A DNA stretch of 57,687 bases from a bacterium BMS3Abin03 (GTDB lineage Bacteria > Bacteroidota > Ignavibacteria > Ignavibacteriales > Ignavibacteriaceae), in the NCBI GenBank assembly GCA_002898075.1, contig BDSV01000096.1, positions 1 through 57,687 on the forward strand, written 5' to 3'. Under the pieces are notes generated by a model, which made no database searches, was not told the DNA's origin, and saw nothing but the letters and a program-made list of their open reading frames with translations. The translations under genes and the position numbers were made by a program. Positions 15,478 to 42,571 of this stretch are shown one piece after another (position 1 is the first letter of the stretch; the number at the start of each line of letters is the position of its first letter).

Positions 15478-15842
15478 TAGCTTTTAACTTGTTGAAGTAT
15501 TAAAGAATTATTTATTGTTAATCTATTTATAAATATTTACGCAATGAATGGATGGATGGAATGTATGATTGAATGATTTAAGAAAATTGCTCCCTACAAA
15601 AACATACATTCATTCATTCAGTCAATCACTCATTCAACCATTCACTTTTTATTTTAAACGACAATCTTATCACTGTTGTATAAATTATTTTTTCTGCTGG
15701 ATAAATATTCTACTAAATCTATAAACTCAATCCCCTGTCCCACTTCTCTTGGCAAGAGAAAGGGGGATGAGTTTCTCTCATAGCTTTAGCATGATTAATA
15801 CTTGTAATCCATTTTATTTTTTCCCTGCTAATCATAAACAAT
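15478..15842. other. Gap with tetranucleotide inverted repeat and a dispersed repeat
   Basis: No gene seen. An imperfect inverted repeat built from GAATGGATGGATGGAATG and its complement TCATTCATTCAGTCAATCAC spans about 15545-15645. A second block at 15725-15800 (CAATCCCCTGTCCCACTTCT, then GGGGGATGAGTTTCTCTCAT) resembles the repeat at 13395-13470. Confidence 0.6.
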
Positions 15843-16340
15843 CTATTTGGGACAGATGTGAATATCATCATCAACATTTATATCGCCGGATTTAATTACT
15901 TTTGCAAATACGCCTTCGCGCGGCATAACACAATCTCCAACTTTAAAATAGATTGCACATTTATCGTGGCATTCTTTCCCTATTTGTGTTATCTCCAATT
16001 CGGAACTATCACCGATCTTTATCTTTGTTCCAATTTCAAATGACGGAACGTTTAAGAATTCAGTTGTTATATTTTCAGCGAATGCGCCGGGGCGTAAATT
16101 CGGTAATCCTCTCTTTCGCATTTTCTCGATGCTTTCAATTGCTAAAAAGCTAACCTGCCTGTGCCAGTTGCCGGCATGTGCATCTCCTTCTATCCCGTGA
16201 TTCGCAATTAATCTTGCAGAGTTTACATTCCTTTTCGGTATTCCTTTTTTCCTGCTGATGGAAATAGCAACAACTTTTCCTATTAGGTTTAGATCAGGAA
16301 TGCTTACAACCGATTCCATTTCTTTTAAGTTACTTTCCAT
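15843..16340 (-). CDS. MOSC-domain protein
   Basis: 165 residues forming one MOSC domain: GKVVAISISRKKGIPKRNV, NHGIEGDAHAGNWHRQVSFL, RPGAFAENITTEFL, and the cysteine segment ITQIGKECHDKCAIYFKVGD followed by CVMPREGVFAKV. MOSC proteins bind molybdenum cofactor or handle sulfur via a conserved Cys. Its place directly after moaC (10-base gap) supports a role in Mo-cofactor delivery or sulfuration; the exact reaction is unknown. Confidence 0.85.
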   Translation of the reverse strand: MESNLKEMESVVSIPDLNLIGKVVAISISRKKGIPKRNVNSARLIANHGIEGDAHAGNWHRQVSFLAIESIEKMRKRGLPNLRPGAFAENITTEFLNVPSFEIGTKIKIGDSSELEITQIGKECHDKCAIYFKVGDCVMPREGVFAKVIKSGDINVDDDIHICPK

Positions 16341-16350
16341 TTCTTACTCC

Positions 16351-16845
16351 TTACCTTTGTAAATCACTAAAATTATATGAGCCGCTTTTACCGCCTGTTT
16401 TTGAAATCAATTTTGTTTCCGAAATAACTATAGATTTATCGATGGCTTTGCACATATCATAAACAGTAAGAGCAGCAACGGAAGCTGCGGTTAAAGCTTC
16501 CATCTCTATTCCCGTTTTGCTTTCGGTTTTAGCAAATACACTTATCTCAACACATGTTTTCTCTTTATTTAAATTCAGATCGACATCGATTTTCGAAATA
16601 AAAATATTATGGCATAAAGGAATAAGACCGGCAGTTTTTTTTGCTGCCTGAATTCCGGCAATTTTTGCAACCGTGAGAACATCACCCTTTTTAACATTAT
16701 TTTCTTTAATTGCCCTGAACACTTCTTCGCTAACTTTAACTTCCGAGTATGCTTCGGCGGTTCTCAATGTTACGTTCTTCTCCGTAACATCGACCATATT
16801 AACTTTACCGTTTACATCGGTGTGTGTAAATTTCTTTTTCATCAT
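16351..16845 (-). CDS. moaC: Cyclic pyranopterin monophosphate synthase
   Basis: 164 residues, full length. Motifs: NMVDVTEKNVTLRTAEA, KGDVLTVAKIAGIQAAKKT, LIPLCHNIFISKIDVDL, TGIEMEALTAASVAALTVYD, and KTGGKSGSYNF. It converts 3',8-cyclo-GTP, the MoaA product, into cyclic pyranopterin monophosphate. Its start overlaps the moaA stop by 4 bases, so both are coupled. Confidence 0.95.
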   Translation of the reverse strand: MMKKKFTHTDVNGKVNMVDVTEKNVTLRTAEAYSEVKVSEEVFRAIKENNVKKGDVLTVAKIAGIQAAKKTAGLIPLCHNIFISKIDVDLNLNKEKTCVEISVFAKTESKTGIEMEALTAASVAALTVYDMCKAIDKSIVISETKLISKTGGKSGSYNFSDLQR

Positions 16846-17846
16846 CCACCTATTTTTAACATGTTGTTATGCTCAAGTATAGTAAGCTCTTCTGCTTCAG
16901 GATGCTTTTCCCATTTAAATATTATTGCTTCAAGTAATAATTGAACAATTTCGTTATCGGAATAATTATTCTTAAACAAAGCTTTAAAATCGATATTCTT
17001 TTCACCGGTAGAAAAAAGGCACAATCTCAGTTTACCGTCGGCAGTTATCCTTAACCGGTTGCAGGTATTACAAAAATGCTCTGACATCGAAGTAATAAAA
17101 CTTACCTTTCCTTCATACCCTTCGATTGAAAAATCTTTTGCAACTTCGTTAACATCTGTAATAAGCGGTTTCAAAATATATTTGGATTCGATTAAGTTCT
17201 TCATCTCATCAAAGCTTATAAACCCGTCACGTGCCCATTGATTATTTCCAAAGGGCATAAATTCAATGAACCGGACATTCAGATTTCTGTTTTTTATAAA
17301 TTCAACAAAATCAAGAATTTCATTATCATTGATATTTTTTATCACAACCATATTTATTTTTACGGGATCAAACCCTGCTTCTACAGATTCATCTATAGCG
17401 TCAAGAACATTTTGCAGGTTGTTTCTGCCGGTAATTTTATAGAACAGTTCCGGTTTAAGTGAATCGAGACTGATATTCAGTTTTTCTATTCCTGTATTTT
17501 TCAGCCGCTGCGCATTACCTTCGAGTAAAGTACCGTTTGTTGTAATTCCAAGTTGAAGATTAAACTTATCTTTTATTTTCTTTACTTCATTAAAAAATTC
17601 GAAGACACTTTTGCGTACAAGCGGTTCTCCGCCTGTGAATCTTATCTTTTTAAATTCGAGCTTATCCGCAAAAATGTGAATGATCCTTAGAATTTCTTCA
17701 TAAGTAAGAATATTATTTTTGCTAACAAGAAAATGATCACCATCCGACGGGTTGCAGTAAATGCAATTAAAATTACATTTGTCCGTCAGTGATATCCGGA
17801 GGTAGTTGTGAACTCTGTTATATTTATCAATCAGTTTCATTTTCAA
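16842..17846 (-). CDS. moaA: GTP 3',8-cyclase (radical SAM)
   Basis: 334 residues. The radical-SAM cluster is CNFNCIYC (C24, C28, C31), followed by RFTGGEPLVRK and LNISLDSLKPELF. The second Fe-S cluster site is CNTCNRLRITADGKLRLC near the C terminus, and the tail ends MLKIGG, as in typical MoaA whose GG end is needed for catalysis. It opens GTP to start molybdopterin synthesis. It abuts the chromate-transporter gene, so expression is probably shared. Confidence 0.95.
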   Translation of the reverse strand: MKMKLIDKYNRVHNYLRISLTDKCNFNCIYCNPSDGDHFLVSKNNILTYEEILRIIHIFADKLEFKKIRFTGGEPLVRKSVFEFFNEVKKIKDKFNLQLGITTNGTLLEGNAQRLKNTGIEKLNISLDSLKPELFYKITGRNNLQNVLDAIDESVEAGFDPVKINMVVIKNINDNEILDFVEFIKNRNLNVRFIEFMPFGNNQWARDGFISFDEMKNLIESKYILKPLITDVNEVAKDFSIEGYEGKVSFITSMSEHFCNTCNRLRITADGKLRLCLFSTGEKNIDFKALFKNNYSDNEIVQLLLEAIIFKWEKHPEAEELTILEHNNMLKIGG

Positions 17847-18374
17847 TTATAGAATAATTAATGCAAAAGCTGCCGCAATAATAACAACATAAGCCGGGTG
17901 AAGCTTAAAGAAAAATATAAGCGCAAATCCGATAATCATAATAATAATACCCCGGATATCACCAAAGTTTCTTTCAGCATATTGATAAATTAGTGCTGCT
18001 ACCATTCCGATTACAGCGTATTTAATTCCGTTAAAACCCTTCATCACCCATTCATTCTTACCAAAATTTGTTAGCAAGTATGAAGCAATCATTATAATAC
18101 CTGCAGGCATAATAAGATTACCGAGATTTGCAATTACAGCCCCGGGAATACCTGCTACTTTAAACCCGATGTAAGTTGCATATTTAATTGAGATTGCACC
18201 GGGAAAAACTTCAACCATTCCGAGAACGTGTAAGAATTCATCGTTTGTTATCCAATGATGATTAGCAACCGCTTCCCGTTCAATTAGGGGTAGTAAAGAA
18301 TATGCACCTCCGAAAGAGAAAGAACCTATCTTAAAAAATGAGATAAAGAGATCGATTAAATTTGTCAGCATCAC
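17847..18374 (-). CDS. Single-domain chromate transporter (CHR family)
   Basis: 175 residues with about five hydrophobic helices. The family signature SFSFGGAYSLLPLIEREAV is at the N terminus, followed by GMVEVFPGAISIKYATYIGF. Short CHR proteins usually occur as adjacent pairs that assemble into an antiporter, yet only one copy is here. Its position directly upstream of moaA suggests it may handle an oxyanion related to molybdate or the respiratory substrate; this is inference only. Confidence 0.82.
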   Translation of the reverse strand: MMLTNLIDLFISFFKIGSFSFGGAYSLLPLIEREAVANHHWITNDEFLHVLGMVEVFPGAISIKYATYIGFKVAGIPGAVIANLGNLIMPAGIIMIASYLLTNFGKNEWVMKGFNGIKYAVIGMVAALIYQYAERNFGDIRGIIIMIIGFALIFFFKLHPAYVVIIAAAFALIIL

Positions 18375-18685
18375 TTTTCCTCAACTACATCATCAATCCA
18401 GCAAAGCGCAGCCATCATCGAAGGCAGACCGATTGTGGGTAATGCGAGCAAAGCAACCTGGTGCATCTCTTCTTTTGTTGCTCCTGCTTTGATTGCTTTT
18501 CTTGTATGCGAATGAACTGCTCCTTCCAAGCGCGCACCGGTAGAAACCGCAAGCTTTATTAATGCACGTGTCTTTTCATCCAATGGTCCGGCTTTATGAA
18601 CAGCGTCACCCATCGATTCATAAGCATTTGCAACATCGGGATAATCTTCACGGAATCTTTTATATCTTTTTGGTATCTGTGACAT
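18371..18685 (-). CDS. Carboxymuconolactone decarboxylase/AhpD-like protein
   Basis: 104 residues with the all-helical CMD fold: DEKTRALIKLAVSTGARLEG, AVHSHTRKAIKAGATKEEMH, and ALLALPTIGLPSMMAAL. The redox CxxC of AhpD is absent (AVHS instead), so peroxidase activity is unlikely while the HTRKA segment is kept. It overlaps the CHR transporter by 4 bases and is first in the moaA operon. Confidence 0.82.
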   Translation of the reverse strand: MSQIPKRYKRFREDYPDVANAYESMGDAVHKAGPLDEKTRALIKLAVSTGARLEGAVHSHTRKAIKAGATKEEMHQVALLALPTIGLPSMMAALCWIDDVVEEK

Positions 18686-19205: not shown

Positions 19206-22200
19206 TTATACTTTGATCAATTTAACTTTTGTGTCACTGAATGAGCTACTTCCTCCGATTGGATCGGTCATGCAAACATCTTTCAGATAAGGATCGGTTA
19301 ATAGCACAACGTTTGTACACAGACCGGTAGTTCTGCGCTCATCGCCTTTAATTAATTTACCATCCACTTTCAAATCCGTAGCACCGTAAGCCCAGTGCCC
19401 AAAATGCCAGGAGACAGCTACTGTGCCGCGACGAATACCTTCAATGACCTTCACTTTTCCGACTACAGGTTTTTTCTTACCGTTATTGAAATTCCAGACG
19501 CCTTCGGGATTCGTGGTTGATACAACCTTCGCTTTATCACCATTAGAGAATCCCAACAGTTCAGCATCACGGCTGTTTATAAGGATGTAGTTTTCGCTAA
19601 GTATCGATGACAACCAGTAATCGTTGGGGAGAGTGCGGGATTGCCCACCCAGAATTTCTTTGTAAGTAATAAGACTAAGATCGTATCCGTCCTGAACAAC
19701 AATTTCGCCCGCAGCATCTTTTATCGGCTCGTAAACCGGCATACCAAAGAATGGCTTTCCTGTCATACTATGATTGGTGGTAGCCACTGGTTCTGCATAC
19801 AAGCTGAATAATCCGTTAAACTTGTGACCAAGATAGTTACCGTTGTAAGCTTTTATGAAATTCTCGTAGCGACCACCTCGGTTCAAGACATAAACAACCT
19901 TTTTCCATTTGTCTGAGCCAACCGTCTTTTCCCAGCGCTGTTGGTCAAATATGGGTTTTGATAGATGGCTACGGCTCTTCAAAAATAGCTCCAATTCCGG
20001 GTTATCGGCATCTGGGACCGTTTCACCTTCTTTGTCGCCAATAGCGATGTTAGCCACCATTTTCAAATAATAGTCTTCGGGTCTTTTAAAATCCCAACCA
20101 TTTCCTAAACCGTTGCCTCCATACCCCGGGAGATTTAACTTCTCAGCAATGGCAAGCATAATGGTTTCCATGCAGATGGGCATTTCCTCACCAAATACTT
20201 TGACGGTTTCAGTGAGTGGGGCTACGATTGGTTGACGTACTTTGCTTGTCTTGGTTTGTACGTCCGGGGTAACGTGGGGCATACCCCATCTCTCCCACAC
20301 AGACAAATCCGGGAAAATATAATCCGCGAACATGGAACTTTCACCAATAACAATATCACAGGCAAAAAGCAATGGTAGCTTTTCTTTATTAACTAACACA
20401 TCAAGCTGAGCTTGGGCACCCGGGACAGAAAAGCCAGGTGTACCTTTGTGGAGAAATAATGCTTTTATAGAATAGGGATAATCAGCTTTGACTGATGGCA
20501 ATATTTCTTGATATAGATTAGAGGTGAAAGGATAAAACGGTCTTTTCGCCGGGTAGCCGTTAAACAACGTAGTTTTTTCATAGAAAGCTTTCTCTCTGGA
20601 AATCTTCAAACCAAAAGCACCTAACTTATTCGGGTGCATCTTCTTTAAGTTGAACGGATTACCGGGCTTGCTACCATCTTCGTGCCAGTGACCTCCACCC
20701 ACGCTTAGACCTCCAACCCAATCCGGGTTACCAACCATCAGGTTAAGTGAAATCAATGCCAAGGCGTTGTAATAACCATTGGTGTGCTTAACAGGTCCAC
20801 GGTAGAATTCCGCAACTGATTTTTTGCCATGGGACGTGAACTCTTGCGCCAATGCTGTAATGGTGGTTGAGTTAATTCCACAAAGCTCAGCCCACTCATC
20901 AAGAGTTTTGGAAGCAGCAGATTCCCATAACAGTTGAAAGGCGCTCTTTACCTGAATGCCCTGGACGGCTGTATTCACCATCAAATCACCTTCAACCGCT
21001 GTTTTCGTGTCATAGGGATTAAATGCAGTCGGGATGCCGTTTTTAAGAACCACAAAAGAATTCTCGTCTCCAAGTTTAAGTTCGGAAGCTCGCACATATT
21101 TCCCCGGTGTACCATCCTTATCAATTTTGACCAGCCAGGCAGCAGTGCTCCAGGAAGGTTCTCCACTGTCCTTGGCTGCTGCCAGATTCGCATTGGTTAA
21201 AAAGGTACGGTCAAAACGTTTGTTTTCGATTATCCAGCGAATCATCCCCAGCGCAAGAGCGCCATCCATGCCAGGTTTAAGCGGTACCCACATCCATGCC
21301 TTAGCTGCTGTCTTGGAAAAACGCGGATCAACTACAGCAATCTTAAGGCGCCCGGTAATAATGCCATCGGTAACCTTTTCTGCCATAGGCGGGGGACCAA
21401 AATTGGCTTCAAAAGCACCGGTACCAAAATAGATAATGAACTCTGAGTTTAAGGTGTCGGGTTTCATATGCTCCTTGCCTCCAAACCACTTGCCATTTTT
21501 GTATTTATTGGTTGCCATTATATAGGCAATGTGGTGGCTCTGCTCGCAAATTGAAGTATGTTCAAAAAAATTAACTGAGCCAAAGGCATCGTTTAACCAG
21601 CGTTTGGCAAATTCCTTTCTGCCGTGCTCAATACGACCAGCTTGAATTACAAATTGATTGTTGATTGGACCAAGATCGGGATGACGGGGATCAAGCAGCA
21701 GATTAATATGATCCACGTGTTTGGTTTTGAAATCAGCTATCGTCATCTCTTTTTTGGCAACTCTTTTAGCGTCGATAGAAAGTGTCTTCTGTACATTCGG
21801 ATCCCGAACAGAATAGAGATTCTTCAAACCCAAAACATTACGATTTTCTTCACCTTTTACGTTTTTAAATAATAATCCTCCATTAATAATTTCGTCTATG
21901 GCTTTATCGAAAGGGATGGTCTCCCATTGATTAGAACCCCGCGGACCAGTACGTTTAAGAACCTTAACAATCCGGTAAGGGTCATACAAACTTTGGATAC
22001 CTGCTTGACCTTTCGGGCAAAGTTTTCCTTCCATGGTTGCAGCTTTTGCAGGAGATGTAGAATAAGATATGTGTGGAAGCATCGATTGGGAAGAATAGGC
22101 AGGACCATCAATCTTAACAAGTACGCCATTTAATAACTTTGCTTTTATCGGACAGTCTGTATGACATTGTAAGCATACAGAATAAATAATATTTTTTGCT

Positions 22201-22394
22201 TTTGAAAGTTCATATATCTCTTGAGGAGTGAGTGTGCCAGCTTCTGCTTTACTTAATAAATTACAAGCCCAATTTAGTTGACTAACTAACAAAGCCGACC
22301 CACCAAGAAAAGCGCCGGATCTGATAAACGTCCTTCGAGAAATCCTCTTGCGGGTATTCTCATAAACTTCCGATTCCGTTATTTTTTTTATCAT
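19206..22394 (-). CDS. Tat-exported molybdopterin oxidoreductase, catalytic subunit (TtrA/ArrA-like)
   Basis: 1062 residues. A Tat signal is at the N terminus (SRRTFIRSGAFLGGSALLV, twin Arg 20-21). A [4Fe-4S] site follows: C74, C77, C81 and C126 (CLQCHTDC, KLCPKGQAG). A Cys at 283 in EHTSICEQSHH is a candidate Mo ligand. The C-terminal molybdopterin-binding domain contains GTVAVSWHFGHWAYGA. Length and motifs resemble periplasmic tetrathionate- or arsenate-reductase-type CISM subunits; the true substrate cannot be read from sequence. It follows the Fe-S subunit (27-base gap). No NrfD/PsrC membrane subunit is present, so the quinone link is unclear. Confidence 0.8.
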   Translation of the reverse strand: MIKKITESEVYENTRKRISRRTFIRSGAFLGGSALLVSQLNWACNLLSKAEAGTLTPQEIYELSKAKNIIYSVCLQCHTDCPIKAKLLNGVLVKIDGPAYSSQSMLPHISYSTSPAKAATMEGKLCPKGQAGIQSLYDPYRIVKVLKRTGPRGSNQWETIPFDKAIDEIINGGLLFKNVKGEENRNVLGLKNLYSVRDPNVQKTLSIDAKRVAKKEMTIADFKTKHVDHINLLLDPRHPDLGPINNQFVIQAGRIEHGRKEFAKRWLNDAFGSVNFFEHTSICEQSHHIAYIMATNKYKNGKWFGGKEHMKPDTLNSEFIIYFGTGAFEANFGPPPMAEKVTDGIITGRLKIAVVDPRFSKTAAKAWMWVPLKPGMDGALALGMIRWIIENKRFDRTFLTNANLAAAKDSGEPSWSTAAWLVKIDKDGTPGKYVRASELKLGDENSFVVLKNGIPTAFNPYDTKTAVEGDLMVNTAVQGIQVKSAFQLLWESAASKTLDEWAELCGINSTTITALAQEFTSHGKKSVAEFYRGPVKHTNGYYNALALISLNLMVGNPDWVGGLSVGGGHWHEDGSKPGNPFNLKKMHPNKLGAFGLKISREKAFYEKTTLFNGYPAKRPFYPFTSNLYQEILPSVKADYPYSIKALFLHKGTPGFSVPGAQAQLDVLVNKEKLPLLFACDIVIGESSMFADYIFPDLSVWERWGMPHVTPDVQTKTSKVRQPIVAPLTETVKVFGEEMPICMETIMLAIAEKLNLPGYGGNGLGNGWDFKRPEDYYLKMVANIAIGDKEGETVPDADNPELELFLKSRSHLSKPIFDQQRWEKTVGSDKWKKVVYVLNRGGRYENFIKAYNGNYLGHKFNGLFSLYAEPVATTNHSMTGKPFFGMPVYEPIKDAAGEIVVQDGYDLSLITYKEILGGQSRTLPNDYWLSSILSENYILINSRDAELLGFSNGDKAKVVSTTNPEGVWNFNNGKKKPVVGKVKVIEGIRRGTVAVSWHFGHWAYGATDLKVDGKLIKGDERRTTGLCTNVVLLTDPYLKDVCMTDPIGGSSSFSDTKVKLIKV

Positions 22395-22421
22395 TTAAAT
22401 AAATCTCCTTTCAGTTTTAAA

Positions 22422-23195
22422 TTAACCATGACACGTCATGCAGGTTTCCTTATTTAGTATGGTTCCGGTCAGGTAAAAAACACGTGGTTTTGTACCTTCG
22501 CTTTCGTTAATGAGAACCCACTTGCGGTTCTTAAGCAATTTGTTAACTACATTATCCGTGTCGTTTTTATCACCAAAATACATAGCCCTACCAACACATG
22601 TAGTAACACAAGCAGGCAACATACTTGCTTCAAGACGATGAAGACAAAAATGGCATTTGCGTACGGCATTTATTGGTGATTGTCCCTTTCCTACACGTGA
22701 CCATTCCTCGCCATATTCGTAGCTTGGTCGAGTTTCATAAGGTTCCAGTTTTGGTGTATTTGCTGTATAGAAAGTCCCCTCATCATAATAAACCGCCGTG
22801 TAAGGACATTGATTTTCAACTTTTTGGAATAGCTTCTTACCTTTCAACTTATCGTAATGAAAGACCAGAATACCATCTGCACGTTTGGTGTAAGCGTCTT
22901 CGGGAATGCCTTCAATACATGGCGGGTTATCACATTGCTGGCAATTCGTAGGCATAAAATAGCGGCTTACCTCGGGATATTCTCCATCCTCAATATCATT
23001 TACAACCCGATAAGAAACGCCTGGAGGAGATACATTTTCAGCAATGCAGGAAACTACGCAGGCATTACAACCAATACATTTGTCTGTATCGATGACCATA
23101 ATCCAGGAACGCTTATTCATCGGTTTTTGGAGCGCTCTTTTCAGGTCTTCCTGCATTTTTACTACAAGGTTTTCCTTTATATAAGTTTGTTGCAT
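22422..23195 (-). CDS. Four-cluster Fe-S electron-transfer subunit (TtrB/DmsB-like)
   Basis: 257 residues. Ferredoxin-type Cys groups are visible: CIGCNACVVSC, CQQCDNPPCI, a NQCPYTAVYY segment, and CHFCLHRLEASMLPACVTTC, enough for four [4Fe-4S] clusters as in DmsB/NrfC/TtrB. It has no export signal, so it probably leaves the cell by hitch-hiking with the Tat-exported catalytic partner encoded just downstream. Oddly, the last residues are CMTCHG, a CxxCH haem c-attachment motif (or an extra metal site) not typical of this family. The gene order B then A is as in ttrBCA, but without C. Confidence 0.85.
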   Translation of the reverse strand: MQQTYIKENLVVKMQEDLKRALQKPMNKRSWIMVIDTDKCIGCNACVVSCIAENVSPPGVSYRVVNDIEDGEYPEVSRYFMPTNCQQCDNPPCIEGIPEDAYTKRADGILVFHYDKLKGKKLFQKVENQCPYTAVYYDEGTFYTANTPKLEPYETRPSYEYGEEWSRVGKGQSPINAVRKCHFCLHRLEASMLPACVTTCVGRAMYFGDKNDTDNVVNKLLKNRKWVLINESEGTKPRVFYLTGTILNKETCMTCHG

Positions 23196-23622: not shown

Positions 23623-24651
23623 CTATTTAAATTTCCAGAAAAAGGTAACTCTCGCAATAACATCACTTGTCGGTGTAACACCGTCATCAGTCTCATCATA
23701 CTTAACAAATTCAACATTAGGTATAAAAGAAACACCTTTTACCGGATGCCAATCCACACCACCTACAAAGAATGTATTTTTAGCTTCGGCAAATGGAATA
23801 TATGAAATTTTTTCACCTTTGAGGTTAGGATCAAGATTTCTGTCAACTCTCCCCAATAAAGAAACCTGCTCGGAAACAGCCCCAACAATGAAGAGCGATG
23901 CTACTCTCATCTTTTGATCAGCAGTGTTTTCTTTCTGTCTTGTTTGATCGGCGTATTGTAAACCAGCACGTAAATTTTTTGTAACATACCCCATAAAAGC
24001 TTGTAATGTATACCAGTCGGTATTTCCGGCGTGGTCAGCATAGTCTGCATATAATTCAATAACCCACTTTTGGGAAGGATATAACCCCAGTGAAAGCAAT
24101 CCGGATTTTCCTTTATCAATTTCCTGTTTATTACTTGACCCGTTGGAGAACATCAGATGATATTTGAAAATTCCACTCTTATCGAACTGTCCTTTCAGAG
24201 CAAGACCAAAATCCCTTGAGCTTCCCATCTTTTGCAGATCTAGAGGTGTTTTTTCAACTGATCTATATCCCCACATTTTTTCAACAACGTTCCATGTAGG
24301 CGTTGGTGAAATACCAATTATAAATGCCTGCTTTGAGAATTTATACTTCAACCAGGCATCTTTTACAAAAGGAACCATTGTTTTTGCCTGTTCAAAGTTG
24401 AACTCATTTCCCATTTCAAGTCTTAATCTTGTAGAGAAACTACTGTTTATATTATAATCATAAGTAAAATAAATACGTCTGAACCAGATACCACGCTGGT
24501 CCTTAAGGTCAGGATCGTGGTTATCGATGTAGTAATAGTAATCCCCGAACATATATCCACTAAATTTACCACCGCTTTCTTCCTTTTTATCTTGTGGAAA
24601 TGAAGGAATTGCAAATAAAACTGCGAAAAGAAGAATAGCTAATTTTTTCAT
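23623..24651 (-). CDS. Porin-like outer-membrane protein, copy 2
   Basis: 342 residues with a signal peptide (KKLAILLFAVLFAIPSFPQD), a beta-barrel and a C-terminal RVTFFWKFK. It is the close paralogue of the protein at 12156-13184, with near-identical length and long shared blocks. Its ATG overlaps the tatA stop (ATGA), and the tatA 3' end carries its AAGGAG ribosome-binding site. It is probably the outer-membrane entry channel for the substrate of the molybdoenzyme encoded next. The sigma-54 promoter at 24857-24873 should drive both tatA and this gene. Confidence 0.77.
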   Translation of the reverse strand: MKKLAILLFAVLFAIPSFPQDKKEESGGKFSGYMFGDYYYYIDNHDPDLKDQRGIWFRRIYFTYDYNINSSFSTRLRLEMGNEFNFEQAKTMVPFVKDAWLKYKFSKQAFIIGISPTPTWNVVEKMWGYRSVEKTPLDLQKMGSSRDFGLALKGQFDKSGIFKYHLMFSNGSSNKQEIDKGKSGLLSLGLYPSQKWVIELYADYADHAGNTDWYTLQAFMGYVTKNLRAGLQYADQTRQKENTADQKMRVASLFIVGAVSEQVSLLGRVDRNLDPNLKGEKISYIPFAEAKNTFFVGGVDWHPVKGVSFIPNVEFVKYDETDDGVTPTSDVIARVTFFWKFK

Positions 24652-24827
24652 TTTAACTCCTTTTTAATTGGTTCTACTGTGTCTTTAATTGTGTTGATTT
24701 CACTTTTGAATTCTTTAATGCCCTTTCCAATTCCCTTAGCAATTTCAGGTAGTTTTTTTGCACCGAAGAAAACAAGAATAAAAGCAACGATTAATAAAAT
24801 TTCAGGAACACCGATATTACCGAACAT
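24648..24827 (-). CDS. tatA: Sec-independent translocase subunit TatA/E
   Basis: A 59-residue gene. The protein starts MFGNIGVPEILLIVAFILVF (short periplasmic end and single membrane helix), followed by the FGAKKLPEIAKGIGKGIKEF hinge and amphipathic helix, and a charged tail: a complete TatA/E. It forms the pore-like component that moves folded Tat substrates. The stop overlaps the porin start. Being co-transcribed with a porin and close to a Tat-dependent molybdoenzyme suggests dedicated or boosted export for that enzyme. A GGAAAG site precedes the ATG. Confidence 0.88.
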   Translation of the reverse strand: MFGNIGVPEILLIVAFILVFFGAKKLPEIAKGIGKGIKEFKSEINTIKDTVEPIKKELK

Positions 24828-24856
24828 TATACTTTCCTTTCAAAATTGTTTACGTG

Positions 24857-24873
24857 AAGCAATGGAAATGCCA
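24857..24873 (-). promoter_or_regulatory. Sigma-54 (-24/-12) promoter for tatA-porin
   Basis: On the minus strand TGGCATTTCCATTGCTT matches the consensus TGGCAC-N5-TTGCW, with exactly ten bases between the invariant GG and GC. Transcription would start near 24847, about 20 bases before the tatA ATG. The neighbouring gene encodes a GAFTGA-containing sigma-54 activator. Confidence 0.75.
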
Positions 24874-24929
24874 AGAGTTTATATTGAGAAAAATATTTGG
24901 TTTTGAGCTATTATTAAATTATTTGGATT

Positions 24930-24983
24930 AAACGAGAGGTTATTTAAAAGCGAAACTTCGTTTTTAAAAGCGAATTCTCGTTT
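24930..24983 (-). promoter_or_regulatory. Putative upstream activator sites (phased repeats)
   Basis: TTTAAAAGCGAA occurs at 24943-24954 and again at 24963-24974, exactly 20 bases (about two helical turns) apart. AAACGAGA (24930-24937) and TCTCGTTT (24976-24983) form the outer inverted arms. The block lies 57-126 bases upstream of the sigma-54 promoter, where NtrC-type activators bind. Confidence 0.6.
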
Positions 24984-25037: not shown

Positions 25038-26399
25038 TTATAAATTGTACTTTTCTATTTTTGAACGAAGGGTTGAAACAGGAATTTTTAATAATTCTGC
25101 TGCTTTGTTTTTGTTTCCCCCTGTTTTTGTAAGTGCAGTTTTTATTGCACGGATTTCAAATTCATCTACTAATTCAGATAGACTATCATCCCCAAAATTA
25201 ATTTCGGATTTACACGGGATTTCCCTGCAATAATCCAGGGGAATTTTATCGATATTAATCTTTCCATCTCTTGCAAGAATAACCAGACGTTCAGCCAGGT
25301 TTTTCAATTCCCTCGTGTTACCGGGCCAGGAATAGTTTTGAAGTATTTCATAAACACCCTGTTCAATTTCTATATTTTCGTTTCCGCCGAACTGCTTAAT
25401 GAACTCATTAAAAACTATTGGAATGTCTTCCGATCTTTCCCTGAGCGGTTTAAGATGGATGGGCCAAACGTTCAGGCGGTAATATAAGTCTTCTCTGAAC
25501 TTGCCTTCATTAACCAATTTTAATAAATCTTTCTTACATGATGCAATTACTCTCACATCAATTTTAACCGGTTTATTACTTCCAAGGCGTTCAATTTCAT
25601 TTTCCTGCAAAACCCGCAGCAATTTTACCTGCAATTCTAAAGGCACATCATCTATATCGTCCAGATAAATTGTACCGCCGTCAGCTATCTCAAATCTCCC
25701 GATTCTGTCTTTTTCGGCACCCGTAAATGCGCCCTTAATATGCCCGAATAACTCGCTCTCAAAAATATCTCTCGATAAAACAGCACAGCTAACTTTTACA
25801 AGAGGTTTATTGCTTCTTGAACTATTGTAATGAATGATATTCGCTATCAATTCTTTACCTGTACCTGTTTCACCGGTTATTAAAACCGATGATTTTGTCT
25901 CGGCAACCATACAGATAGAGTCTCTCACCTCTTCAACAACCTTACTTTTACCGCAGTAAACTTCGTAATTATATTTCGATTGAAACTGAAGTGAAAATTC
26001 CTTGTTAATCTTTCTTAAATTTCTAATCTCATCTATTCTTTTCAATAATAAACTAAGTTCATCCTGCTCGAATGGTTTTGCTAAATAATCGAAAGCACCT
26101 ATCTTCATCGCTTCAACTGCAGATTTTACAGAACCAAAGGCAGTCATCATTATTACAAAAATGTTCGGCTTGAGTTTTTTTATTTCAGATAAAAATTCAA
26201 TACCATTCATTGCTGGCATTCTTATATCGGATACTACTACTTCAACCGGGTAATTCCGAATATGTTTTAAGGCAATAAGCGGGTCTTTATAAGCTATTAC
26301 ATTATGCCCGGCATCTGTAAGGTCGTCTGTCAGAGATACTCTGACTATTTCCTCATCATCTACTACACAGATATTTAATGGTTTAATTTTCGTAAACAA
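25038..26399 (-). CDS. NtrC-family sigma-54-dependent response regulator
   Basis: 453 residues in three domains. The receiver (1-120) has phosphoacceptor D58 in VVVSDIRMPAMNG and conserved K108. The AAA+ domain has Walker A GETGTGKE (176-183), the sigma-54 contact loop GAFTGA (223-228) and a Walker B region TIYLDDIDDV. The C-terminal Fis-type HTH reads TGGNKNKAAELLKIPVSTLR. It overlaps the sensor-kinase gene by 17 bases, and its 3' end faces the repeat block and sigma-54 promoter at 24.9 kb. It most probably activates tatA-porin. Confidence 0.93.
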   Translation of the reverse strand: MFTKIKPLNICVVDDEEIVRVSLTDDLTDAGHNVIAYKDPLIALKHIRNYPVEVVVSDIRMPAMNGIEFLSEIKKLKPNIFVIMMTAFGSVKSAVEAMKIGAFDYLAKPFEQDELSLLLKRIDEIRNLRKINKEFSLQFQSKYNYEVYCGKSKVVEEVRDSICMVAETKSSVLITGETGTGKELIANIIHYNSSRSNKPLVKVSCAVLSRDIFESELFGHIKGAFTGAEKDRIGRFEIADGGTIYLDDIDDVPLELQVKLLRVLQENEIERLGSNKPVKIDVRVIASCKKDLLKLVNEGKFREDLYYRLNVWPIHLKPLRERSEDIPIVFNEFIKQFGGNENIEIEQGVYEILQNYSWPGNTRELKNLAERLVILARDGKINIDKIPLDYCREIPCKSEINFGDDSLSELVDEFEIRAIKTALTKTGGNKNKAAELLKIPVSTLRSKIEKYNL

Positions 26400-27912
26400 A
26401 ATCGCCTCTGTGGATTGAAGGTAATAGGATTATAAATTTGGTTCCAATACCGGGTTTGCTTTCAACCTCTATTTTACCTCCGTGCGATTCAACTAAATTT
26501 GAAATTACTGCAAGTCCTAATCCTGTACCTTTATCAGCTAATTTAGTTGTATAAAACGGATCGAAAATTTTAGGTATTTTATCGGCGGGAATACCGACGC
26601 CTGTATCCTCAACAGTTAACTGCACATAATTTTCATCATTCTTAGTAGTAATTGTTATAGCTTTTACAGGACTATTCTCCTTTTCTTCGATAGCATCAAT
26701 TGCGTTTATTATAAGATTCATTAAAATTTGTTCAATATGAATTAAACTACCTCTTATATAATTTACACCTGGTTTTATTTCTTTAGTTAAAGATATTTGA
26801 TTATTCTCTAATCGGTGAGCAACTAATAATAATACTCTTTCAATCGCCTCTTCAACATTCACTGCGTTAAATTGAATTTCTTCTTTTCTTGAAAAACTAA
26901 GAAGATTTTTGATCACCATTTCAACTCTGTCAACAGCTCTGTTCATCATCCCAATATACTTTCTATTTTGTTCAATATTATCGGGAGATTGCTGAATTCT
27001 TCGCAAACAATTTTTTATGCCTGTAATAGGATTATTTATCTCATGTGCAAGTCCTGATGAAAGTGTTCCGATAGTAGCAAGTTTTTCAGACTGGAGAAGT
27101 TTTTGCTGAGCTAATTGTAAATTTATATATGCATCTTCCAATCTATCTATCATTTCGTTGAATTTATCTGTCAACAAATCAATTTCATCGTTTGCTCGAA
27201 AAAGATATTTAATTTTACCCAATAATTTTTCTCTGATTACAATTTTCGGTATAGTTCGTTCTTTAAGTGCTATGAAGTCTAAATTATCTGCAACTCCTCT
27301 AATAGCATTAATTGGTTTGGTAATAAAGAATGCAAACATTAATGCACCCAACACACCGAAGAAGAGAAAAAATCCAACCATCATCCAGAAATGTGAAACA
27401 GTATTCATTACATCAGAAGTAATTCCTGCTTCCGAAATTCCCAACCGGACAGAACCGAGTTTGCCTTCCATTACTGGTAAAGATATATCTCTAACTATAT
27501 TGTTATCCTCATTTGTTAATTGAATCAAGATTGTATTGATCCGTTCATTTGAGCCGGGTATATTTATATTTCGTAAAACATCCGGAAACCTTGTATTGAA
27601 AGTATGCGCAATAACACGTTTATCTTCATCTATTATGAAAACGTAATCAACTGTGTTATCCAATGACTTGGATTCATCAAGAATTTTTTGTACGCCAACA
27701 TAATCTTCGAAAAGTAATGGCGTAACAACCTGTTCGGCAATGCTTTTACCTATAAACATAGCTCTTTTTTCTGATTCTTTTTCGAGCGCTTTCTGTATAT
27801 CTTCCCAAATAAGATAGGCATTTATACTTCCGAATAACATTACGATAAAAAGAATTGCTAAGGTGAATTTCCAAAAGAGCGGAAGATAAAAATATTTAAT
27901 TTTTCTACTCAA
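26383..27912 (-). CDS. Sensor histidine kinase
   Basis: 509 residues. Membrane helices at about 13-34 and 177-200 flank a periplasmic domain of some 140 residues with a Cache/PAS-like look (DYVFIIDEDKRVIAHTFNTR). A HAMP linker follows, then HisKA with H290 in SSGLAHEINNPITGIKN, and HATPase motifs NLIINAIDAI, DTGVGIPADKIPKIFDPFYT, TGLGLAVISNLVESHGG. It overlaps the regulator (17 bases) and the binding-protein gene (4 bases), so the three form one operon resembling X-S-R three-component systems. Confidence 0.92.
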   Translation of the reverse strand: MSRKIKYFYLPLFWKFTLAILFIVMLFGSINAYLIWEDIQKALEKESEKRAMFIGKSIAEQVVTPLLFEDYVGVQKILDESKSLDNTVDYVFIIDEDKRVIAHTFNTRFPDVLRNINIPGSNERINTILIQLTNEDNNIVRDISLPVMEGKLGSVRLGISEAGITSDVMNTVSHFWMMVGFFLFFGVLGALMFAFFITKPINAIRGVADNLDFIALKERTIPKIVIREKLLGKIKYLFRANDEIDLLTDKFNEMIDRLEDAYINLQLAQQKLLQSEKLATIGTLSSGLAHEINNPITGIKNCLRRIQQSPDNIEQNRKYIGMMNRAVDRVEMVIKNLLSFSRKEEIQFNAVNVEEAIERVLLLVAHRLENNQISLTKEIKPGVNYIRGSLIHIEQILMNLIINAIDAIEEKENSPVKAITITTKNDENYVQLTVEDTGVGIPADKIPKIFDPFYTTKLADKGTGLGLAVISNLVESHGGKIEVESKPGIGTKFIILLPSIHRGDFVYEN

Positions 27913-28829
27913 TTAAATGACTCAATAGATTTATAGATTGAAGGATCGACTAAAACAAACTTATCTATCTGTAGATCTTTTAGAATACTTTTGCCTTTAT
28001 TATCAAGATGCATATTCAACAAAATATTTTGGATTTTTTTAATAATTTCCTGGTTTGAGTTCCGGGTATATACAAAAGGAGGAATCCCAAACCATTCTGA
28101 CTTCTTTATTATTTTAATATTCGTAATCCTTTGGGGATGATTAACCTTTAAATATTCATAAACCAATCCATCTATGGCAGCACCGTCAACCAATCCTCTT
28201 TCCACTGCTTGTATTGAATAATCGTGTGCATAAGTAAATATAGTTTTACTAAAATATTGATCTGGTTTAGAATGAATTTGATTAAGCAGCTTGATTGCAA
28301 ATTTATATCCTGTATTGGATAAAGGATCAGTAAAAGCAAACGTCTTGCCTTTTAATTCATCGAAGCTACTAATATTGCTGTTTTTATTTACGATTATATA
28401 TGCCTGATAATAGGGTTTGCCTCTTATTTCAGGAGCTGCTAATATTTTCAACGGAAATTCCTTTCTTGCCACAACAAAAGCTCCGGAACAAATGTAGGCA
28501 AAATCAAGGTCTCCGTCTTTCAGCAGGTTGTTAACCTCCTGGTAAGTTTTTCTCTGCTTGAGCTTTATAGGAATACCAAGCTTTTTCTCAATATATTTTA
28601 GAAGGTTTTCATAAAGGGAAAAAGTTTCTTTTGGAGAGATCATGGTAGAAATAGCTACATAAACCGTCCTGTTATAAATGTTTTGCGCTTTATCCTGCGA
28701 GTTCTTTTCAGAAGTAGCGAGGTTTAATTTTACAGGTTCTTTATTTCCATAATGATTCGGATCTTTACAGCCGATTAATAAAATTATTACAGCAAAAACT
28801 ACTAAACAAAAACTCTGTTTCATCAACAT
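27909..28829 (-). CDS. PhnD-like periplasmic binding lipoprotein (sensor component)
   Basis: 306 residues with a lipoprotein signal (hydrophobic helix, then LIGCKDPNH, Cys 21). The body is a two-lobed type 2 periplasmic binding protein of the phosphate/phosphonate PhnD family (VYVAISTMISPKETFSLYEN, FAYICSGAFVVARKEFPLKI, FAFTDPLSNTGYKFAIK). No ABC transporter is adjacent; it is instead operonic with a kinase and a sigma-54 regulator, as AioX-AioS-AioR and ArrX systems are. It probably presents an oxyanion-like ligand to the kinase. The ligand cannot be determined here. Confidence 0.83.
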   Translation of the reverse strand: MLMKQSFCLVVFAVIILLIGCKDPNHYGNKEPVKLNLATSEKNSQDKAQNIYNRTVYVAISTMISPKETFSLYENLLKYIEKKLGIPIKLKQRKTYQEVNNLLKDGDLDFAYICSGAFVVARKEFPLKILAAPEIRGKPYYQAYIIVNKNSNISSFDELKGKTFAFTDPLSNTGYKFAIKLLNQIHSKPDQYFSKTIFTYAHDYSIQAVERGLVDGAAIDGLVYEYLKVNHPQRITNIKIIKKSEWFGIPPFVYTRNSNQEIIKKIQNILLNMHLDNKGKSILKDLQIDKFVLVDPSIYKSIESFN

Positions 28830-28992
28830 AAATTTACCGATTTAATTATTTAATCTACGACAAAAATAAACCCGGGTAAATGTTTAATCAAGACAAAACA
28901 ATTCTGTAGAAATATTATTTTGATTAATTACTCGAGTTAACCGGTCAACTTGAGACCTTTAAAAAGGCATTTGCCTTTCTTCATTAAGAAAA

Positions 28993-29037
28993 TGACCACT
29001 TTATTAGCTTAATTTAGTACTTTTTAGAATGTGGTCA
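28993..29037. repeat. Inverted repeat upstream of the glutaredoxin gene
   Basis: TGACCAC (28993-28999) and GTGGTCA (29031-29037) are perfect inverted arms 31 bases apart in the divergent gap between the sensor operon and the glutaredoxin gene; this could be an operator. An AAAGGCATTTGCCTTT palindrome lies just before it (about 28963-28978). Confidence 0.4.
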
Positions 29038-29126
29038 CTAGCAGTAAAGTAAGATAAGAATCTTGAAACCTATTCTTTCAATAATCATCATATACCACGA
29101 AGATAAATAATTTTACAGGAAGAATT

Positions 29127-32268: not shown

Positions 32269-32769
32269 ATGAGTTCCATAGACGGTAATTCTGCTGCCTT
32301 TAGTAAACTTTCGGAACACGTACGCGAAATTGCGTATTCTTATTTTCTTTCCAAACACCATTTAAAGAAAATTATTAACCTTGAGGATGTTGAAGATCTT
32401 ACTAACAACGTCTATCTAACTTTTGCCGAGCAGTATCATAATGTTGAAAACATTGAAAACTGGCTTCGAAGGGTGCTCTTTTTAACTTTCATTAAGTGGT
32501 ACAAACGAAATAAATTAACAAGTTCTTATGAGCTGAATAATAATATTGCTACAGATGGTAATCATAATAGAACGGCAGATATATTAGACACCGATATTAT
32601 TTTAAAGCTGCTCGATTCATTCAGCGATGAAAAACAGAAGATTATTAAACTGAGATTCTGGGGTGATCTGAAATTTCATGAAATTGCAGAGAAAATGCAT
32701 AAATCGGAAGTAGCCGTTAAGAAGATGTTCTATCGAACAATTGCAGAAATAAAAATCAAATTGAAATGA
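32269..32769 (+). CDS. ECF-type RNA polymerase sigma factor
   Basis: 166 residues. Region 2 includes NLEDVEDLTNNVYLTFAEQY and VENIENWLRRVLFLTFIKWY; region 4 has FSDEKQKIIKLRFWGDLKFH followed by the HTH EIAEKMHKSEVAVKKMFYR. It is the first gene of a three-gene set with an anti-sigma-like membrane protein (68-base gap) and a TPR-CHAT protease. It presumably directs transcription in response to a signal sensed by the next two proteins. Confidence 0.88.
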   Translation: MSSIDGNSAAFSKLSEHVREIAYSYFLSKHHLKKIINLEDVEDLTNNVYLTFAEQYHNVENIENWLRRVLFLTFIKWYKRNKLTSSYELNNNIATDGNHNRTADILDTDIILKLLDSFSDEKQKIIKLRFWGDLKFHEIAEKMHKSEVAVKKMFYRTIAEIKIKLK

Positions 32770-32837
32770 ATGTCACAAATGTTACGATTTAGGAACTATT
32801 TAATTGGGTAATCAAAACACGATATTAAGGCATTGAA

Positions 32838-33794
32838 ATGGAAAAATTGGAAAAAATACTCGACATTTTAGAGAATACTGATCCTTCGGATGCGGATAAA
32901 AAATACCTGGAAATGAATTTATCGGACGAAGATGTTGAGAAATTTGTAAATGTATATAACGTTCTGAAAAAAGTTCTTTCAGGTTCAATTCACCTTGACC
33001 CGGTTATTCTTGGAGATTATATTCTTTACAAACGAGGGAACGGCGATTCTGTCGAATATATTTCACTTGTGGCAGATAAAATAAAATCACATCTTAATTC
33101 CTGCGCTACTTGTTCAAAAGAGTATAATTTATTAACTGCAGAACTTGATTCAATAAATGACTTTTTAGGTAAGCGAATTACAGAAAAAAATAAAGAGCAG
33201 CCAACATTATTCTTATTTCAGAAATCTGTTAGTTTCAAATATGCAATAACTGCTGTGATGGTTATATTAATATCGTACTTTGGTTTGAGAGTGGTCTCGG
33301 ATATTTCTACTCCTTATTACAAGCAGCAAATATTTTCAGCCAAAGAGGAAAACAGCTATATAACGCGCGGGAGGAGAACCACCCTGTTTCAGAGGAGTCT
33401 GAACGCACTGGATAATAAAGAATATGATAAGGCAATTAAATTATTAAACGAAGATATTGTGCAGAATAAAAATGACAAATCAATATTTTATTCATATTAT
33501 GTGCTTGGAATTACTTACCTTAAAACTTCCGAGTCTGATTTTTTAGGCGCCTTCAAATCTTATGATAATACGAAAGTTCAGAAAGGTATAAACAATTTAG
33601 AAATATCGATTAAGAAAAACAGCAGCGGTTATTTTGAAAATATTAAGCTCGATGCTCATTACTATATTGCACGCGGTTATTTAATTATGGATGACATTTC
33701 CTCCGCTGAAAGTCATCTGAAAACGGTAGTTGAGAAACGTGGCAGGTTTTACAAAGCAGCGGAAGAACTTTTGAATTCGTTGAAGAAGAATTAA
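32838..33794 (+). CDS. Zinc-type anti-sigma factor with a membrane segment and TPR-like domain
   Basis: 318 residues. The N-terminal part (1-125) is predicted cytoplasmic and has a ZAS-like H-x3-C-x2-C site (H85, C89, C92 in SHLNSCATC). One membrane helix lies at about 133-152 (YAITAVMVILISYFGLRVV). The C-terminal part, on the other side of the membrane, has TPR-like helices (NALDNKEYDKAIKLLNEDIV, AHYYIARGYLIMDDISSAES). Layout and position after the sigma gene point to an anti-sigma factor released by cleavage. It lies 3 bases before the CHAT protease gene. Confidence 0.8.
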   Translation: MEKLEKILDILENTDPSDADKKYLEMNLSDEDVEKFVNVYNVLKKVLSGSIHLDPVILGDYILYKRGNGDSVEYISLVADKIKSHLNSCATCSKEYNLLTAELDSINDFLGKRITEKNKEQPTLFLFQKSVSFKYAITAVMVILISYFGLRVVSDISTPYYKQQIFSAKEENSYITRGRRTTLFQRSLNALDNKEYDKAIKLLNEDIVQNKNDKSIFYSYYVLGITYLKTSESDFLGAFKSYDNTKVQKGINNLEISIKKNSSGYFENIKLDAHYYIARGYLIMDDISSAESHLKTVVEKRGRFYKAAEELLNSLKKN

Positions 33795-33797
33795 TAA

Positions 33798-36700
33798 ATG
33801 TCTTTCAATCATCATCTGAAAATCATTTTACTTTCCATACTTATTGGCGCTGCCGGTTTAGCGAATCTTTCGTCATCTTACGAAGCAGGAAATAAAACGC
33901 ACCTGCAAAATAGTAAAAACCAAAATTTTGTAATCGAAGGGGAAAATCAATCCCGTTTCGATGAACTTGAATACAGCATAAGAAATAAAAAGATAGATGA
34001 TAAATCATCTTTTGAAAATGAAATACTCAAGCTTAGTAATGAATTTGAAAAAGAGTATTTGCTTGCAATATTTAAAAAGCGTTCGGGCGAATTCCAGGAA
34101 TCATATAATATCCTCTTAAAATTACTTCCCTCTACACCCATATATATCCGCTATTATGAAGAATTAGTCGAACTTGCTAATATTACCGATAATCTTAATC
34201 GACTAAAGCAGAAGCTTAATGAGCTTGTCAATAATAATTACAAGCTTTATCTAAAAGGGATAATCTCTTATAAAGAAGGAAGTTACGAGAATGCGATAAA
34301 GGATTTTCAAAAACTAATTAAGGATGATTTTTTGACAAAGGAAGTATATTATTGGTTAGCATACTTTAACAGAGGAATAGGCAACTATCAAAAAGGACTT
34401 GATTTATTAAATAAAGCGAGCAGGTTAACAGATGCTACCGATTTATATGCTCCGAGAATTACTTTAGAAATAGGATCACTCTACTATCTTTCGGGAAATT
34501 ATGAAGAAGCTTATAAGTATTATAAAAAGGGTTATGATGAGGCGCTGGAATTAAAAAATTTACCTTCGGAAATCCGCGGTCTTACAGACCTCGCTATTAT
34601 TAAAGATGAAACAGGCGATGTTGAAGCTGCACGCAAAAATCTGTTGGAGGCAATAGAAAAAGCAAAAACAATAGAAAATTTAGAACTGCTTGCTCATCTC
34701 TATTCGGAAATTGGTGTGTCATATAGTTTTACCAATGAATTAATTAAAGCACGCGATTATTATTCGAAGAGTTTCAACTTATATTCAAAATTGAACAACA
34801 GGGAAAGATTATCGTATTTATCCAGCAATATTGCTTCAATTTATCTGCAGACTGCCAGCTACAAGGAAGCGCTCCGGCATTACAATGATGGATTGAACTA
34901 TGCCGGTGAAAACGTACTTGGACAAATATTAAATTTAACCGGAATTGCCGATGTTTATACGAACATGGCAAATTACTCCAAATCGTTGGAATATTATAAC
35001 AAAGCAAGAGATTTAGCCAAATCAATAAATGATATTTCCTCGGTAGCAAAGGTTGAAATCGGACTGGGATCGCTTTATTACAACATTAACAGCCCTAAAT
35101 CTTCGCTAAACTTTTTTTATAATGCAGATAAAATTATTAAACCCGGCGATATGCCCTTTCTCGCTGCAGATATTTATTTAAAGATTGCTACAGTAGAAAC
35201 TTCTTTGAAAAATTACAAAACAGCGGAAGAGTATTTTAATAAGGGTTTGAAAATTACCGAAGCTACCGGCGATATTTATTATAACACACTTACAAGAACG
35301 GAGTTCGCTAATGCATCGATTGAACAAGGGAAATTATCGAAAGCGGAATCTTTACTCGATGAAGCTGTTAAAATGGCGCGGGAATACGATTTTAAGCAGT
35401 TAATCGGTTTACAGGAACTTTATTTCGGGAAGATTAATAACATTGAAGGCGGTTATGAAAAGGCATTAAAGCATTTCAAAAAAGCATATAATTTCAGCTC
35501 GGTTACAAACGATTTTAATAATCAGATAGAAGCAGGTTTTTTTATTGCGAAAACAGAAGTGAAAAATAATCCGGTGGAAGCTGAAAAATGGTTTAAATCT
35601 ACCATAGAATTAATAGAACGTATTTCTAATCCACTGGTTTCAAATTCGGAAGTGCAAATCTCTCACTTCGCCGCATTCAATGAAGTATATAAATCATTAA
35701 TTAATTTTTATCTTTCAAATAATAAAACAAAAGAAGCATATAACTATCTGGAAAGGTCCCGCTCGAGGAACACATTGCAAAATCTTGTTAACCTCAAATT
35801 GATAAATTCTAATATCGATGAGAGAAAAATAACCAGGTATGCTGATTTGAAATGGATGATAGAATCAAAATTGTACGACGATGAAGATGTTAATAAATTT
35901 ACCGGTGAGCTTGATACTCTGGAGAAAGAGTTTACAACAAAAAATAAAAATCTTGTAAGGATAATGGATCAAAATCAAGCGCTTAATTTGCAGAATATTC
36001 AAAATAATCTCGAAGGAGATGAAACCGTTATTTCATTTTTTATAACCGATGATTACATCCAATCCTTTTTAGTTGACAGCTCTAATTTCAAATCGGAAAG
36101 AATTTATACCGGCAGAGATGAACTAATTTCACTTATAAAAGAAATCACCCCACTGTATAAATCAATTATAACAAGGGATGAACTATTTATTAACCAGGAT
36201 CTGTTTGCGTTCAATGCCCGGTCGGCAGGAAAATTGTACGAAATTATTTTTAAAGACCTGCTTAAAAATATTCCGGACGGAAGAAAAATAATTTTTTCTT
36301 TGCCAAATGAATTATTAATTGTCCCGATTGAATTCTTAGTTACGGATTGGGATGATGACCAGAGCCAGTATTATTATGCTGATAAAACTTTTCTAATTGA
36401 AAAATACCCGATATCATATACACCATCAGCATCAATTTATATCCGCCAGAAAAAAAGCGAACGAAATACAGGCGGTAAAATACTTTTAGTTGGTGACCCC
36501 GATATCACCAATAAGGAATTTACACTAAGCTATAGAAGCGGATTGTTAGAAGACGGTGCATCTTCAATGAGAAATATTAAGTTGTTTCCGCTCGAGTTTT
36601 CTAAAGATGAAATTATAAGTATTGATGCATTGGTGAATAATGATGTTGTATTGCTTTCGAAAGATGCAACTGAAACTAACCTGAAGAAAAACGCTCCCGG

Positions 36701-40970: not shown

Positions 40971-40991
40971 TTAAAATCGGAGAAATAAACA

Positions 40992-42539: not shown

Positions 42540-42571
42540 TCTGAAATAGCAGAGATTAAAGGAGTTTATTA

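Follow-up and report, generated by a model that had tools for sequence, protein, structure and literature searches.

The 57,687-nucleotide stretch of bacterial DNA analysed here (contig BDSV01000096.1 of the Ignavibacteria bacterium BMS3Abin03, referred to below as the window) raises the question of how an operon with the appearance of an anaerobic-respiration locus is switched on. The first gene of this operon, tatA (24648 to 24827, minus strand), is preceded by a response regulator gene of the NtrC/AtoC family (25038 to 26399, minus strand) that ends at 25038, so that the whole control region is confined to a 210-bp spacer. We propose that the spacer carries an operator and a sigma-54 promoter which, together with the product of the neighboring regulator gene, very probably constitute the switch for the operon.

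The promoter element, TGGCATTTCCATTGC, is found at 24873 to 24859 on the minus strand, 31 bases 5' of the tatA ATG at 24827, with the -24 GG at 24872-24871 and the -12 GC at 24860-24859, and a GAAAGGA ribosome-binding-like site sits between the element and the ATG. The sigma-54 promoter with exact GG-N10-GC spacing recorded in the initial annotation was thus borne out, the element fits TGGCAC-N5-TTGC, and transcription is predicted to start near 24847. The motif TGGCA-N6-TTGC was found 22 times in the 3.76-Mb genome, both strands included, compared to 12 times for a reversed control, so that about 0.001 matches would be expected by chance in a 210-bp spacer; 16 strong matches to sigma-54 activators were found in the same genome. 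Elements of the type TGGCA-N6-TTG[C/A] occupy the orthologous place in relatives, nearer the operon gene than the palindromes described below, and the -12 GC reads GA, GG or GT in several of them. The competing view, that a sigma-70-type promoter drives tatA and that the sigma-54 match arose by chance, can draw on three weak sigma-70-like matches in the region (mean expectation, 1.6) and on possible read-through from the regulator operon, but the relatives keep their TGGCA-N6-TTG elements at a similar distance, mostly 26 to 39 bases 5' of the start codon, and the genome encodes rpoN (PF04552 match, E=1.8e-61); we regard this view as highly improbable.

Upstream of the sigma-54 element, two copies of a 12-base repeat exactly 20 bases apart, within flanking arms, had been taken as the binding site of the regulator. 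The copies are real, TTTAAAAGCGAA occurring only at 24943 and 24963, and the assignment of the region to the regulator was supported, but the unit itself has to be redrawn: the functional unit of the putative operator is a 10-bp palindrome, CGAAATTTCG, present in two copies with centers 20 bp apart, and the 12-base repeat combines an A/T-rich spacer with the left half of each palindrome. The promoter-proximal copy, CGAAACTTCG, lies at 24951 to 24960, with its center at about -108 from the predicted start, and the promoter-distal copy, CGAATTCTCG, at 24971 to 24980, with its center 20 bp further upstream at about -128, in keeping with the phased activator sites anticipated 60 to 150 bases upstream and with a pair of palindromic sites about 70 to 160 bp upstream and spaced by whole helical turns. 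TTTAAAAGCGAA was ruled out as the operator unit, as its TTTAAAA spacer portion varies and is little conserved in relatives that retain the palindrome. Both of the arms are present, AAACGAGA at 24930 and TCTCGTTT at 24976, but TCTCGTTT merely coincides with the right half of the distal palindrome, and AAACGAGA (24930 to 24937, plus strand) is an uncertain extra half site that is not conserved in relatives; the arms were also rejected as a dyad, since they are not conserved. In dinucleotide shuffles of the spacer, the tandem pair had a chance probability of 0.0015 at a spacing of 18 to 22 bp and of 0.0005 at 20 bp. The two exact genome matches to AAGCGAANNNTCGTT both lie in this spacer, which is also the one place in the 3.76-Mb genome where CGANNNNTCG-N8-14-CGANNNNTCG (an 18- to 24-bp step) is found.

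Inverted repeats may also act in RNA, as a hairpin, terminator or leader after the regulator gene, and the window strand does fold a hairpin through AAACGAGA and TCTCGTTT (z -2.2). However, no terminator-like site was found in the region, there was no Rfam match, no fold was shared among 16 loci, and the bases that are fixed fall in two equal palindromes upstream of the sigma-54 element. An RNA hairpin, terminator or riboswitch was rejected on the lack of a shared fold, terminator or Rfam match, and we consider this the least probable of the alternatives.

Conservation of the repeats in relatives had been set beforehand as one of the tests on which their regulatory reading could fail, and it was examined at loci collected by means of the molybdoenzyme, the porin-like protein and the sensor protein. 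A common gene arrangement (sensor, kinase, regulator, tatA, porin-like protein, Fe-S subunit, molybdoenzyme, AhpD, chromate-transporter-like protein and moaA) recurs within the taxonomic order and class, and four loci from the porin search (L065, L066, L070 and L092) retain parts of it. A palindrome close to CGAAATTTCG, in most cases duplicated, is common to the regulator-operon junctions. When the summed mismatches of two copies 18 to 22 bp apart were compared with those in dinucleotide shuffles, the pair beat the shuffles at p<=0.005 in 12 of the 17 orthologous junctions and at p<0.05 in 15, although the junctions are not independent, some being closely related (for example, L099/L123 and L065/L066). 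L100 (p 0.053) and L119 (p 0.41) were not significant singly, no clear palindrome pair was found at the L124 junction, and L121 and L125 were left out of the test because their sequences end too soon. The palindrome pair is conserved in most junctions, and the anticipated refutation was not borne out. Ten clear cases, and also the weak L119 case, have the pair at a spacing of 20 bp; three have it at 21 bp, and spacings of 18, 19 and 22 bp occur once each. In a set of eleven less redundant relatives, the CGA and TCG ends of the palindromes show almost no variation, and it is the columns separating or flanking the palindromes that vary. The distance from the palindromes to the -12 C ranges from about 70 to 165 bp while the spacing of the pair holds, which is the behavior of an enhancer and not of a sigma-70 operator. 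The loci under test also supplied the model palindrome, although it was applied blindly in the shuffles, in the scan of the whole genome of the window and in the regulator-free control. Among 12 genomes, exact tandem pairs at 20 bp were found four times, each time at this locus.

The neighboring regulator almost certainly binds these palindromes, as judged from the company that they keep in sequence comparisons. Its receiver, AAA+ sigma-54 domain and Fis-type helix-turn-helix make it the probable binder; the match to Sigma54_activat is strong (E=1.5e-67), and the GAFTGA motif is visible in the translation, confirming that the sites adjoin the gene for a GAFTGA activator. The recognition helix, IPxSTLRSKIEK, is nearly invariant within the regulator clade, including its distant members, and unlike those of paralogues and AioR. 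This clade formed a single branch (91/68; 94% of bootstrap trees) and stood nearer one paralogue than AioR/ArxR in a small tree with few outgroups and weak deep support. Adjacency is no proof of binding, and the identity of a binding factor is not visible in sequence, so an ArsR-like or global regulator might be imagined at the palindromes in place of the response regulator. Against such a factor, even the best pair in 27 regulator-free porin homologues had no fewer than 7 summed mismatches, compared to 3 to 4 in the four XSR-linked loci recovered by that porin search, the pair is near-unique in genomes and is conserved together with the recognition helix of the regulator, and the palindrome bound by AioR, which regulates an analogous module, shares the CG-N6-CG core; another binder is very unlikely. 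L126 (1098 to 2201) has a regulator of this type and two palindromes at a 21-bp spacing, but the gene that follows them encodes a cytochrome c in place of tatA, hinting at a different target.

The motif had been expected to open a search for a regulon, an expectation that the genome scan did not sustain. The exact tandem pair is single copy in this genome, where it is placed at this locus alone, and likewise unique in three relatives with an exact copy, and a scan with a single palindrome at 2 mismatches gave 486 matches compared to 409 for the control, both strands summed; a wide regulon was not found in these scans, and a single operon seems to make up the regulon of this genome. Autoregulation at the sensor gene was also rejected, as no palindrome was found at 28830 to 29126, immediately before that gene.

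The reading that unites the regulator with a sigma-54 switch, already advanced in the initial annotation, is supported by conservation, by association with the regulator and by the predicted positions of the sites, and a plausible sequence of events can be suggested. A periplasmic protein of the ArrX/AioX type would bind an oxyanion and signal to the histidine kinase, which would phosphorylate the neighboring NtrC/AtoC-family regulator. On two palindromes of the CGAAATTTCG type, 20 bp or two helical turns apart, the regulator could be seated as two dimers on one face of the DNA; these may nucleate an AAA+ oligomer that loops over about 100 bp and activates sigma-54 RNA polymerase at TGGCA-N6-TTGC, yielding a transcript from near 24847 that would encode TatA for export, the porin-like protein and the molybdoenzyme.

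The signal that feeds this switch is probably an arsenic oxyanion, most likely arsenate or another such oxyanion, because an ArrX-like sensor with a largely matching pocket, an apparently orthologous ttrA transcript reported to rise under arsenate in Melioribacter roseus, and ars neighbors and ArrA-like enzymes in relatives all point in this direction. The genes stand in the order X-S-R beside the molybdoenzyme operon: a PhnD-like periplasmic sensor protein (27909 to 28829, minus strand), a membrane sensor histidine kinase with a single-Cache domain, identified by profile matches (26383 to 27912, minus strand), and the regulator. The best solved relatives of the sensor are ArrX (E=1e-55), which is the closest, and AioX (6e-44). 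The AioX pocket is formed by Tyr88, Cys106, Tyr131, Ser161, Ser163, His192 and Asp210 (PMC5908839), and six of these seven residues are identical in the sensor (Y, C, Y, S, H and D), Ser163 being replaced by Thr. The pocket cysteine, reported to be absent from PhnD (PMC5908839), is present in all relatives examined. Homologues of ACR3, ArsC or ArsP occur near the module in L100, L101, L102, L120 and L121; no ars genes were found within the window.

The M. roseus evidence concerns the published 'ArrTSR' and ttr locus, whose gene order and ars neighbors are matched by L102 (PMC5492636); it is apparently orthologous to the window locus, and the L102 junction carries an exact tandem palindrome pair. 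In that paper, an arsenate-type regulator next to ttrA had already been noted, and ttrA transcripts, almost negligible in the absence of arsenate, are reported to have increased strongly in its presence, but the authors did not consider this induction clearly statistically separable, only the rise of psrA (psr/phs) being so, and their preferred candidate for the main arsenate reductase was the Psr/Phs enzyme (PMC5492636). The text available from that source describes no promoter or operator for the ttr locus (PMC5492636). The gap between the Fe-S and molybdoenzyme genes is about 1.3 kb in L102 compared to 27 bases in the window. A frame change, either a sequencing error or a real break, splits the sensor gene of this presumed M. 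roseus locus (L102 4999-5873); intact copies are found in relatives.

The same switch could respond instead to a different oxyanion, such as tetrathionate, selenate or phosphite, that is reduced by the TtrA-like enzyme. The catalytic subunit scores best against the TtrA model (471 bits, far under the cut-off of 1750), and the enzyme type differs among loci, yet the sensor, which is nearest to ArrX and AioX, retains the cysteine of the arsenic pocket, the module occurs in relatives together with ArrA-like enzymes and ars genes, and arsenate is reported to raise ttrA in M. roseus (PMC5492636). We therefore consider a signal other than an arsenic oxyanion to be unlikely, although clearly less so than the alternatives for promoter and operator.

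The substrate of the enzyme in the window is less certain than the arsenic-oxyanion signal proposed for its switch. The operon continues from tatA, identified by profile matches, into a putative porin-like outer membrane protein (23623 to 24651), so named in the initial annotation, which had no Pfam or NCBIfam match and is conserved in synteny; a 4Fe-4S electron transfer subunit of the TtrB/ArrB type (22422 to 23195; profile matches); and a TtrA-like molybdopterin catalytic subunit (19206 to 22394; profile match) with the twin-arginine signal SRRTFIRSG visible in its translation, all on the minus strand. Codirectional genes downstream (14266 to 18685, minus strand) encode, by profile matches, an AhpD/CMD protein, a chromate-transporter-like half, moaA, moaC and MOSC, together with a moeA-like gene assigned from a reading of its translation only; the AhpD-chr-moaA order is conserved in relatives. 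The AhpD-like protein is 77 to 84% identical in relatives, above the identity of the enzyme itself, and with the half-size chromate transporter (together window 17847-18685) it is kept behind the enzyme in most relatives having that end of the cluster. The enzyme falls under the NCBIfam cut-offs for both models, with 109 bits against 1600 for ArrA and 471 against 1750 for TtrA. Behind the same switch, the enzyme is ArrA-like in L065 (1169 bits) and L127 (987 bits), each below the cut-off of 1600, and Psr/Phs-like in L120 and L122. No NrfD-type membrane subunit lies between the Fe-S and molybdoenzyme genes of the window (22394-22422), and the enzyme may be soluble in the periplasm or have a partner encoded elsewhere; an NrfD-type membrane subunit is found near the enzyme genes in L097 (8473-9729), L120 and L065. 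At its C terminus, the ArrA-like catalytic subunit of L127 (12081-14921) has a domain for sorting by type IX secretion (TIGR04183, residues 866 to 945), suggesting a cell surface arsenate reductase. Elsewhere in the window are a protein with RhuM and Fic domains (4234-5235), a row of genes for a sigma-70-like factor, a protein with a weak TPR match and a 1,154-amino-acid TPR-CHAT (caspase-like) protein (32269-37262), and a CusCBA-like heavy-metal efflux operon whose adaptor bears a metal-binding domain (39699-45751).

The aio and arx systems provide known examples of XSR modules that have an AtoC-type regulator and an RpoN promoter (PMC5908839). AioXSR of the aioBA loci of Agrobacterium and Rhizobium NT-26 resembles the window system in its PhnD-like sensor, histidine kinase and AtoC-family regulator in the same order and in its position beside a molybdoenzyme operon with a TGGCA-N6-TTGC promoter, although the enzyme differs and the regulators were not grouped together in a small tree with weak deep branches. 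The protected site of AioR is GTTCGGATTTCCGAAC (PMC5335332), and we found sites matching it, in single copy and with the CG-N6-CG core, before aioB in NT-26 and Agrobacterium. This core is common to both systems (GTTCGAGAATGCGAAC in NT-26; CGAGAATTCG on the minus strand of the window), but AioXSR has one operator, flanked by GTT and AAC, whereas the window has two, 20 bp apart, flanked by A(A/G) and (T/C)T, so that the window palindromes do not conform to the AioR-type GTT-N10-AAC; the recognition helices also differ (ISRTTLWEKM in AioR; IPVSTLRSKIEK in the window regulator). ArrXSR of Chrysiogenes arsenatis, whose ArrX is the solved protein closest to the sensor, stands beside an arsenate respiration enzyme. 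Chrysiogenes ArrR is CitB-like and lacks an AAA+ domain, and an RpoN promoter upstream of arrAB was not detected (PMC5908839), in contrast to the AAA+ regulator and sigma-54 promoter of the window. No description of this tandem operator was found in the open-access papers searched, in which the literal CGAAATTTCG returned unrelated titles only. The window system is thus best described as a further sigma-54 module of the AioXSR/ArxXSR kind, with a putative tandem operator for which no earlier description was found.

These findings provide a concrete, conserved candidate operator (tandem CGAAATTTCG, 20 bp apart) and promoter for arsenic-type sensing in a poorly studied group, and the switch offers a means of picking out, as the molybdoenzyme encoded behind it, candidate arsenate reductases that resist assignment by sequence alone. 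We suggest, tentatively and with the balance somewhat against it, that the XSR genes and the tandem palindromes, together with the sigma-54 promoter and the tatA-porin front, make up a portable control cassette for arsenate respiration that has been coupled to at least three types of enzyme (TtrA-like, Psr/Phs-like and ArrA-like) in Ignavibacteria and other groups. Were this so, the TtrA-like and Psr-like enzymes would be unrecognized respiratory arsenate reductases.
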